Part shown: positions 33,914-54,194 of the stretch, piece after piece | How the letters are laid out: every line of letters begins with the position of its first letter | How positions within the stretch are numbered: the first letter of the stretch is position 1 | Assembly: GCF_016901575.1 (NCBI RefSeq) | Contig: NZ_JACJKQ010000008.1 | Location: forward strand, 1-64,000 | Direction of reading: 5' to 3' | DNA length: 64,000 nt | Source: Enorma phocaeensis | Lineage (GTDB): Bacteria > Actinomycetota > Coriobacteriia > Coriobacteriales > Coriobacteriaceae | The notes under the pieces: model-generated | Database searches by the model: none | Seen by the model: only the letters and a program-made list of their open reading frames with translations | Told to the model about the DNA's origin: nothing | Made by a program: the position numbers and the translations under genes

Positions 33914-33930
33914 GTGAAGAAGCCTCCGTT

Positions 33931-34100
33931 TCTTCCATCCGGACTGTACCGTCGGCCCCGGATTCTCACCGGATCAACCGCTTGATGCGGGTCGCGGGCT
34001 TCTGGCTGCGCGGCGCTGCGTGGAGCCGCCGCGTGAGGCCGGTCGTCATGCCGGCCCGCCAGTTACCGCCGGTAGGGAATTTCACCCAACCCTGAAACTG
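33931..34100 (-). ncRNA. FMN riboswitch (RFN element)
   Basis: Read on the minus strand, the RFN core GGGTGAAATTCCCTACCGG occurs near 34088-34070, then the variable arm, then GATCCGGTGAGAATCCGG and GGTACAGTCCGGATGGAAG, closing near 33931. This is the conserved FMN aptamer. The ribU ribosome-binding site begins within a few bases, so FMN binding likely represses ribU. The stretch 34101-34370 holds the divergent murB leader; TATAGT near 34272 may be the murB -10. Confidence 0.93.
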
Positions 34101-34370
34101 TGCGAGGTCACTATAGCGCTTTTGCGCACTGGTGAACAGCGACGATTCGAAGGTTCACGTTGCCAGGGCCTTCTCCTTTTGTCATGTCGATATTCCAAGT
34201 GGGAAAGACGGCCGAGGCGACACGTCTGCCCGCGGGCCCGGGCGCGCCGTTTGCGCGGCGGGGCATCGGGTATAGTCTTGGGGAATGTTTGCCGCGAAGA
34301 CGAGCCTGACGGGTGCGCCCGGGCGGGTTGACGCTTCGCTTTCGCTATAGAGGTATGTGAGGCGGTTTTC

Positions 34371-35396: not shown

Positions 35397-35655
35397 TTGC
35401 CCGTTAGATGTATCAAAACGGGCAAGCTCGGCATCTCCGACCGATTGCTTTCAAGACGAGTGGTCAAAAAGGTGCTCGATATAGCAATTTTCCGTCGATT
35501 GCGCCTGGTTTTTGGAACCCGGGGCAGCTATTTGGCTTGCCCTGGGAGGCGGGAGGGCTGTCCGGCGTGCCGATTTGAGCCCAATAGAGTGTTAATAATA
35601 TATACAGCACCGCGTCTGAAGCGTCGAATTGCTACATCAGCGGCTATTTTGACCA
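35397..35655. repeat. Intergenic repeat with TGGTCAAA-N11 elements (locus 4)
   Basis: TGGTCAAA-N11-TATAGCA lies at 35461-35486, and TGGTCAAA-N11-TGTAGCA is inverted at 35630-35655. Both continue with AATT. A weaker copy, TGTATCAAA...CTCGGCA, starts at 35409, 52 bp before the first. A 9-bp hairpin (TTGCCCGTT, 35397-35405 with 35417-35425) overlaps it. The stretch 35331-35789 is locally AT-richer than its surroundings and holds no convincing gene. Confidence 0.65.
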
Positions 35656-49229: not shown

Positions 49230-50690
<1,461 letters not shown>

Positions 50691-50917: not shown

Positions 50918-51487
50918 ATGAAGGTGCTCATTGCTTCGGACATTCACGGCTCGGCCTATTGGGCCGGCCGCCTCATGGAGGCCATCGATGTCGAGCAGCC
51001 CGATCGCGTCGTGCTTTTGGGCGACCTGCTCTATCACGGGCCGCGCAACGACCTGCCGCGCGACTACGCCCCCAAGCGCGTTATCCCCCTGCTCAACGAC
51101 CTTGCCTCCTCCGGCAGGCTCGTCGCCGTGCGCGGCAACTGCGAGGCGGAGGTCGACCAGATGGTGCTCGGCTTCCCCTGCATGGCCGACTACTCCGTGC
51201 TGGTCGACGAGGCGGGGCGCGAGCTGTTTTTGACGCACGGGCACGTGTTCGGCGCCGGTTTCCACAACAGCGTGGACCATCTGCCCGCCCTGCCTGCGGG
51301 CTCGGCCATCGTCTACGGGCACACGCACGTGAAGGTGAACGAGCCCGTTCCCGGCGCCATGGAGGTCTGGGCATTCAATCCTGGCAGCGTCTCCATCCCT
51401 AAGGACGGGTCGCACAGCTACGGCATCTACGAAAGCGGCCGGTCGATTGCCGAGGCGTTTCGCCACGTGGTGCTCGAGGAGGCGTAG
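50918..51487 (+). CDS. YfcE-type metallophosphoesterase
   Basis: The 189-residue protein has the calcineurin-like metal motifs LIASDIHGSAYW, VLLGDLLYHGPRN, VRGNCE, TLTHGH-type FLTHGHVFG and YGHTHVKVNE. YfcE homologues are phosphodiesterases with unknown physiological substrate. ATG 50918 follows GAAAGG. It ends at the start of mazG, so the genes are coupled. Confidence 0.9.
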   Translation: MKVLIASDIHGSAYWAGRLMEAIDVEQPDRVVLLGDLLYHGPRNDLPRDYAPKRVIPLLNDLASSGRLVAVRGNCEAEVDQMVLGFPCMADYSVLVDEAGRELFLTHGHVFGAGFHNSVDHLPALPAGSAIVYGHTHVKVNEPVPGAMEVWAFNPGSVSIPKDGSHSYGIYESGRSIAEAFRHVVLEEA

Positions 51488-51492
51488 TGCGC

Positions 51493-52365
51493 ATGGAAGC
51501 AAATCTGTCCCACGCTGAGCCATCGCAACAAGAGGCGGCTCGCGACCGCTCGACCCGCTCCGACGCGCGTGACTCCTTGGATGCGCTCGTCGAGACCATC
51601 TGGCGTCTGCGCCAGCCCGACGGATGCCCTTGGGACCGCAAGCAGACGCATGCGTCCATTGCGAAGAACATGGTCGAGGAGGCCTATGAGGCCGTCGACT
51701 GCATAGAGGCAAACGACGCCGAGCACCTATGCGAAGAGCTGGGAGACGTGCTCATGCAGGTGCTGCTGCACGCTCAGATCGCGGCCGACGCCGGCGAGTT
51801 CACCATCGATGACGTGGCTCGGGGCCTCAACGAGAAGCTCATCCGGCGCCATCCGCATGTGTTCGGCGAGCACAATGCCGCATCGGACGCCGACGAGGTG
51901 CTGGGGATCTGGGATGCGGTAAAGCTTGCCGAGAAGGCGGGACGCGACGCTCAGGCGGCGCAGGCAAACGAGCGCCCGGCGGGACTTTTGGACGGCGTCC
52001 CGCGCGCGTTGCCGGCCCTTATGGAGGCCCAGAAAGTCTCGCGCAAGGCTGCCGCCGTGGGCTTCGAGTGGGATACGGTGGACGACGTCTGGGACCAGGT
52101 GGCGTCGGAGCGAGAAGAGTTCGAGCGCGAGGCCCCTGGTTCCGACGAGCGTGAGCTTGAGTTCGGCGATATGCTGTTCGCCATGGTAAACGTGGCGCGC
52201 AAGGAAGGAATCGACGCCGAGAGCGCCCTGCGTGCGAGCACGGCGAAGTTCCGCCGCCGCTGGGAGGCGGTCGAGAACCTCGCGCAGGAGGGTGGCTCCT
52301 CGGTAGAGGACCTCTCTACCGAGGAACTCAACCGCCTGTGGAATCAGGTGAAGACGAGCGAGTAG
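51493..52365 (+). CDS. mazG: Nucleoside triphosphate pyrophosphohydrolase
   Basis: MazG hydrolyses noncanonical NTPs to NMP and PPi. The 290-residue protein has two MazG-type halves: RLRQPDGCPWDRKQTHASI with EEAYEAVDCIE and ELGDVLMQVLLHAQIA in the first, and VGFEWDTVDDVWDQVASE with EFGDMLFAMVNVAR in the second. ATG 51493 and GTG 51487 are both possible after AGGAGG. The upstream 20 residues are charged and not conserved. Confidence 0.92.
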   Translation: MEANLSHAEPSQQEAARDRSTRSDARDSLDALVETIWRLRQPDGCPWDRKQTHASIAKNMVEEAYEAVDCIEANDAEHLCEELGDVLMQVLLHAQIAADAGEFTIDDVARGLNEKLIRRHPHVFGEHNAASDADEVLGIWDAVKLAEKAGRDAQAAQANERPAGLLDGVPRALPALMEAQKVSRKAAAVGFEWDTVDDVWDQVASEREEFEREAPGSDERELEFGDMLFAMVNVARKEGIDAESALRASTAKFRRRWEAVENLAQEGGSSVEDLSTEELNRLWNQVKTSE

Positions 52366-52408: not shown

Positions 52409-52706
52409 TGGTCAAAGTGGTCGCTGCCTGGGCAGGCTCCGCGCGCACATCGGTGGCGCTTGGTCAAAAGGTTGCCTGCCTGGGCAAGGGGGCGCGGCGG
52501 GTGCGTGTCCGTGGTCAAACGGGGCTTCCTCTGGGCAGAATGCTGCCTGCGCGAGCGCGTGCGGGTACGGTTCCCTGCCCAGGGCGACATGCTTTTGACC
52601 AGGGTGCTCTGCCGGGGCACGCCCCATATGCCCAGCGCAGCTGGCATATGACCATCGCTGGTTCTCGGCACCGTCTCATCTGCCCAGCGTGGCACATTTT
52701 TGACCA
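52409..52706. repeat. Six-copy mirror-symmetric array TGGTCAAA-N11-CTGGGCA (locus 6)
   Basis: Plus-orientation copies begin at 52409, 52461 and 52512. Inverted copies span 52576-52601, 52629-52654 and 52681-52706. Every copy is 26 bp: an 8-base block, 11 variable bases, then a 7-base block. One copy has TGGTCATA; the others are exact in both blocks. Copies are 51-53 bp apart. The mid-point of the array is 52557, and gap sequences are not conserved. The rest of 52366-52904 has no gene. Confidence 0.9.
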
Positions 52707-52844
52707 CGGCGCCAGGCCAAGAGATCGCGCCGGCGGCCGCGTCCGGCGCCACATCGGCCGCTTCCAGCGCCTCCGACTCCCAGATGCCCGGATGAAAATC
52801 TTCGGGCTCTCGCGTTATCGTGCCGTCAATTCGGGCATACTTAA

Positions 52845-54194
<1,350 letters not shown>

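Follow-up and report, generated by a model that had tools for sequence, protein, structure and literature searches.

We consider it probable that the array of six 26-bp elements located between the housekeeping genes mazG and eno of the gut bacterium Enorma phocaeensis belongs to a set of about 15 platforms on which a cognate protein with a Vsr-like domain, P0001, docks; this protein would regulate its own gene, seed new platforms in a REP-like manner and have a structural role in the host. The dispersal of the arrays, their architecture, their helical phasing, the selection acting on them and their co-occurrence with the partner gene are shown by the sequences.

In the window, i.e., the whole stretch of 64,000 nucleotides that was analysed, the array spans positions 52409..52706. 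It begins 43 bp past the stop codon of its left neighbour mazG (51487..52365, + strand); eno is the right neighbour (52905..54194, + strand), preceded by a conserved upstream stretch (approximately 52795-52904) that is not part of the array and that the congener G001 retains. Three forward elements are followed by three inverted ones according to the pattern TGGTCAAA-N11-CTGGGCA, in which two fixed blocks flank an 11-bp core. The plus strand carries element 1 (TGGTCAAA-GTGGTCGCTGC-CTGGGCA, 52409..52434), element 2 (TGGTCAAA-AGGTTGCCTGC-CTGGGCA, 52461..52486) and element 3 (TGGTCAAA-CGGGGCTTCCT-CTGGGCA, 52512..52537), and the minus strand element 4 (TGGTCAAA-AGCATGTCGCC-CTGGGCA, 52576..52601), element 5 (TGGTCATA-TGCCAGCTGCG-CTGGGCA, 52629..52654) and element 6 (TGGTCAAA-AATGTGCCACG-CTGGGCA, 52681..52706). 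Blocks are perfect in five of the six copies, the remaining one, element 5, having a single change (TGGTCATA). Same-strand starts follow each other in steps of 52, 51, 53 and 52 bp, and the central forward-to-inverted step is 64 bp. All this agrees with the preliminary description, which had reported three forward and three inverted copies at a period of about 52 bp between mazG and eno, five of them perfect and one with a single change. The same description had presented the 11-bp core as variable; variable it is, but not wholly free, with Y-G favoured at positions 14-15 and C at position 18. The element consensus reads T-GGTC-R-A-W...CTGGG-Y-A, GGTC and TGGG being nearly invariant, and the blocks TGGTCAAA and CTGGGCA have no mutual complementarity. 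At up to three mismatches the window contains 8 matches, compared to a mean of 1.19 (largest value 5) in shuffled windows; the three-mismatch match at 52852, which overlaps the conserved region upstream of eno, was taken as chance.

The window genome (G000, 2.36 Mb in 108 contigs) holds 67 element matches at up to two mismatches, against 1 for a backwards control pattern, and these copies cluster into about 15 dispersed intergenic arrays. With the score cut used, G000 and G001 together yielded 31 arrays and 172 copies, and forward copies precede inverted ones without exception. Of 114 same-strand spacings, 112 measure 51-53 bp (the other two are 63 and 106 bp), and the central step is 74-75 bp in 22 of 27 arrays and 64, 126, 127, 138 or 190 bp in the others; the exceptional values 63, 64 and 138 are about one helical turn off the usual value or off the value expected with one copy missing. 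A four-fold TGGTCA with a 10-bp period, unlike the arrays, was seen elsewhere in the genome (contig C3, L044:1883-1918). The 26-bp architecture recurs in the genome and, as related arrays, in relatives, so the absence named in the preliminary description as its refutation did not hold, though the motif is absent from one congener, the third genome of the genus; some of the genomes compared are incomplete. In G001, whose MazG and Eno proteins are 88 and 96% identical to those of the window, the mazG-eno gap is about 219 bp long and has no array, so the eno array was gained or lost since the two genomes split. The window gap is longer by about 320 bp, close to the array length of 298 bp. Other arrays are orthologously placed in the two genomes, for instance close to a gene for a tRNA; their blocks and spacing are preserved, whereas the spacer sequences can hardly be recognised any more.

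A looser pattern, applied to 67 genomes of the family, revealed related arrays, sharing the first block but with different cores, in G036 (45 matches) and in G056/G057. Same-strand steps in G036 are 63, 73-74, 83-84 and 95 bp (103 bp once) and its centre is 75 bp (64 bp twice), and in G057 the steps are 51-53 bp and the centres range from 64 to 200 bp. The best period was 10.6 bp for the G036 spacings (R 0.97), 10.45 bp for the G057 centres (R 0.97) and 10.4 bp for the pooled centres (R 0.96), each beyond 2000 random sets, and 10.5 bp for G052/G054 (p 0.007), while the six distinct G036 values alone gave p 0.05; these p values are indicative, since the distances were entered by hand, with the 103-bp step omitted, and the arrays are not fully independent. 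In several species, the spacings are quantised in helical turns with a period of 10.4-10.6 bp.

Selection was assessed on 12 orthologous arrays, comprising 53 copies, in G057 and G056. Divergence amounts to 13 of 636 positions (2.0%) in the blocks, 18.7% in the cores, 27.1% in the spacers and 26.6% in the 150-bp flanks. Gaps, counted in one direction (in the second genome), affect 2 of 2165 aligned spacer positions versus 100 of 3500 aligned flank positions. Block sequence and spacer length are therefore kept, whereas the spacer sequence drifts like the flanks. Judging from these alignments, what selection appears to maintain in each array is a rigid platform for protein binding, rather than an RNA or a decaying repeat.

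The candidate partner gene of G000 encodes the 328-aa protein P0001 (C88:34996-35979). Its G001 orthologue has an array on either side. In G000, the array is immediately downstream of the gene and only a lone, eroded copy is upstream; in G036, G056 and G057 the related gene also adjoins an array. Close relatives of P0001 (E below 1e-50) were found in G000, G001, G036, G046, G052, G053, G056 and G057, and in the other eight genomes searched there were distant relatives only (seven genomes) or none (one genome). Members of the subfamily are present in 26 of the 67 family genomes. When scanned singly, 10 of 11 members matched PF18741 (REase_MTES_1575; best E 7e-7), P0001 itself being the sole one without a Pfam match, and four of the 11 matched DUF559 (best E 0.0014). 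D230 and E241 are invariant and K243 is found in 10 of 11 members, giving a conserved D...E-x-K; the N-terminal part of the family matched no profile. The MTES_1575 domain has been described as a restriction endonuclease of the Vsr family (PMC3710099). The identity between partner proteins is about 41% where that of the neighbours is 72-78%, and 60% where it is 92-96%, showing that the partner gene evolves faster than its neighbours, and it keeps its genomic place in the cases compared. No member gave a Pfam match to a Y1 transposase, no AbiEi model was among the Pfam, NCBIfam and PADLOC matches, and defence families gave no match of weight. The search against solved structures returned chance-level matches only, including the endonuclease-like 3hrl (E 0.82) over the expected region, and a single-sequence structure model was unusable (pLDDT 34). 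The partner is likely a protein that evolves fast and carries a Vsr-like PD-(D/E)XK domain (PF18741/DUF559) at its C-terminus, and its link with the arrays is likely too, given their adjacency and co-occurrence. A recombinase or nucleoid-type binder had initially been suggested; a Vsr-like PD-(D/E)XK protein as the likely partner settles the type of protein only in part.

The pairing of gene and motif extends to genomes in which no array was known. In G046, G052 and G053, the predicted pairs were found beside the gene, with different motifs, and the second paralogs of G000, G001 and G036 likewise have motifs of their own (one strong copy only at the second G036 gene), so that paralogs within one genome have different motifs. 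Most motifs start with TGG[TCA]CAAA. Inverted pairs that agree at 14 or more of 15 end positions occur within 750 bp upstream at 18 of 23 subfamily loci, not all of them independent as several species are close relatives, versus 3 of 142 unrelated stretches. Of the remaining five loci, three have a weaker pair (13/15), one of them, in G049, with a strong pair downstream as well; the fourth (G000a) has its array downstream and the fifth (G024) has none. A 15/15 pair lies downstream of the family gene in G053, G059, G049, G031, G000 and G001, repeats on both sides of the gene being a feature of some loci only. One such locus is L220 (G053), where the family gene has, on either side, an inverted pair with the motif TGGCCAAAA...GGTCGAAAAAGT. 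In a relaxed scan with no matched control, distant paralogs also tended to adjoin inverted pairs.

Three gene-adjacent motifs, from species in which the motif of the window was absent, were used in prospective searches for dispersed repeats in the same genome, and all three tests were positive, with zero matches for the control patterns in each. The G046-type motif occurs genome-wide 3 times in G046, 10 in G023, 7 in G035 and 4 in G036, and not in G002, G007, G024 and G061. The G052/G054 motif has 18 and 15 copies, one in G053 and none in five other genomes; the single G053 element (C13:119970-119994, L268), in a genome whose own gene has a different motif, is possibly a relic. A distant motif of the family has 9 to 12 copies in G007-G010 and none in four other genomes, and in G007 it occurs mostly within 20 kb of the gene. 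Pairs of this distant motif in G007 (L327/L328) have a 45-bp forward-to-inverted step and lie about 40-60 bp past the stops of several tandem genes; one pair in L327 seems split by about 1.5 kb (6730 and 8289). The array motif already known from G056/G057 was matched 44 and 82 times in these two genomes and not once in four others. Among the genomes and motifs searched, cognate repeats are abundant only where the partner gene is present, and from the sequences the specificity of the protein seems to differ from species to species, some tens of sites in the genome shifting with it.

The window contains a convergent pair of a second type, with the pattern TGGTCAAAA-N8-GAT[AG]TAGCA (35461-35655). 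Its forward element (TGGTCAAAAAGGTGCTCGATATAGCA, 35461..35486, + strand) fits the motif beside the second family gene of G000 (C19:2862-3818), and its inverted element (TGGTCAAAATAGCCGCTGATGTAGCA, 35630..35655, - strand) lies in the gap where a murB-like gene and a gene on the minus strand converge; the step of the pair is about 170 bp, compared to 160 bp at the second family gene. Other features of the window are an FMN riboswitch (33923-34103, minus strand) and a LarC-like protein with a long His/Glu-rich stretch (49230-50690).

Gene calls, usable for 35 arrays albeit rough, place 22 arrays between tandem genes, 10 between convergent genes and 3 between divergent genes; 42 of the gene ends facing arrays are 3′ ends versus 28, an excess that is not significant on its own. 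The neighbours include eno, a class I tRNA synthetase, RimP, MraZ, an Fe hydrogenase and a SpoIIE-like protein, with no common theme, and a metabolic regulon was rejected on account of these unrelated neighbours. It is unlikely, on these grounds, that the elements are operators of an ordinary transcription factor with a regulon of neighbouring genes, even if most subfamily loci have inverted pairs upstream of their family gene, several arrays are upstream of genes and AbiEi-type proteins autoregulate through 23-bp inverted repeats (PMC7319586): the neighbours share no function, only 3 of the 35 roughly called gaps are divergent, and the conservation of arrays located between convergent genes speaks against a general role in promoter control. 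Somewhat less doubtful, but still improbable in our view, is a non-autonomous mobile repeat of the REP/BIME kind, spread by the partner nuclease and having no host function. A gene beside or between inverted copies, dispersed intergenic copies, a species-specific motif, the gain or loss of the eno array and the fast evolution of the gene would all fit it, such features being reported for RAYT/REP (PMC2817692). However, orthologous arrays are kept block by block while their spacers diverge at fixed length, which is unexpected for decaying transposon copies, the gene stays at the same genomic position wherever this was compared, and 25 arrays gave no sign of target-site duplication (mean longest match 1.92 versus 1.90 for the null, although old copies could have lost such duplications). 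Purifying selection acting on individual arrays also sits poorly with a purely REP-like, selfish spread.

A defence or conflict module, in which chromosomal decoy arrays would keep a restriction-like nuclease inactive until an attack releases it, would account for the Vsr/DUF559-type domain with its conserved D...E-x-K and for the fast evolution. We hold it to be quite improbable, as the loss of one decoy out of 15 should be weakly selected, yet the examined arrays are conserved, no defence family was matched with any weight, and the system was not found on phages or in viral contigs. A phage or plasmid origin was rejected: the searches showed neither the array pattern in viral contigs nor a relative of the protein in viral contigs or phages, and just a distant relative on a 900-kb Collinsella record filed as a plasmid. 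Transposon ends, an idea taken from a likeness to the TnsB sites of Tn7, were discarded in the absence of a target-site duplication and of a transposase between the arms. Least credible of all is a transcribed structured RNA, which would fold into a long hairpin with interruptions as forward copies pair with inverted ones: the arms are inverted and the RNA fold z is -3.2, but the cores of nested partners agree at 4.33 of 11 positions versus 4.21 for non-partners, a quantisation at 10.5 bp is not expected of single-stranded RNA, and no Rfam family was matched at the array. A simple stem or RNA element was therefore rejected, bearing out the earlier view that the array is not a simple stem. The companion claim of that view, a protein reading both blocks from one face of the helix, is strongly supported by the helical-turn spacings, the fixed spacer length and the lack of partner-specific pairing.

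Returning to the docking platform for P0001, we infer the binding and cutting by this protein, the spread of the platforms and their role in the cell. One protein unit would read both blocks of the 26-bp element, which are about two helical turns apart, and further units would bind on the same face of the DNA at spacings of whole helical turns. The two convergent arms would then meet across the dyad, and a defined higher-order complex would assemble. Pairs or arrays beside the gene would imply autoregulation; upstream autoregulation is weaker as a proposal in G000, where the array is downstream and only an eroded copy is upstream. Over evolution, new platforms may have been seeded into intergenic DNA by a REP-like gain, of which the eno array may be an example, and then kept by selection. 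As for the host, the most likely role would be structural, as a chromosomal scaffold or a transcription boundary, and not that of a metabolic regulon.

The usual explanations for dispersed repeats in bacteria are remnants of transposons, hairpins or single operators. In the present case, the conserved spacing rule (whole turns, with spacer length kept and spacer sequence drifting) provides direct comparative evidence for a large protein-DNA assembly at many sites. A specificity that apparently co-shifts with tens of sites poses an evolutionary puzzle comparable to the turnover of centromeres or of the PRDM9 kind, and the motif-gene pairs of several species make the system directly testable.

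We could not match the pairing of array and protein to any described system, and found no description of these arrays in the open-access papers. The ends of Tn7 and Mu contain repeated transposase sites, several of them asymmetric and 22-26 bp long, facing from the two ends. The likeness lies in these several asymmetric 22-26 bp sites facing each other; the difference is that the arms here are separated by a centre of just 49 bp or of a fixed helical multiple, with no transposase genes in between. The Vsr, DUF559 and MTES_1575 REase-like proteins share the C-terminal domain with D...E-x-K, and array-forming cognate repeats are not described for them in the literature found. AbiEi binds 23-bp inverted sites at its own promoter, the distance of which shifts by about 10 bp between relatives (PMC7319586); inverted sites of 23-26 bp upstream of the own gene and a change in distance of about 10 bp between relatives are shared, whereas the family studied here gave no AbiEi match and its sites form arrays that are dispersed over the genome. 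In RAYT/REP systems (REPIN, BIME), the gene has inverted copies of its own repeat, dispersed repeats are abundant only with the matching gene, repeats and gene change together, and the gene evolves faster than its neighbours (PMC2817692). All four features are shared, but RAYT is an HUH/Y1 transposase and the partner here has a Vsr-like PD-(D/E)XK domain, REP repeats are hairpin palindromes and the elements here are bipartite with a variable core. In further contrast, the arrays described here are convergent, helically phased and individually under strong selection, and this selection on single arrays points to a host role. We see an even chance that the system is a non-homologous counterpart of RAYT/REP turned structural, with helically phased, individually selected platforms throughout the chromosome, whose sites would have changed together with the specificity of the protein several times within one family.
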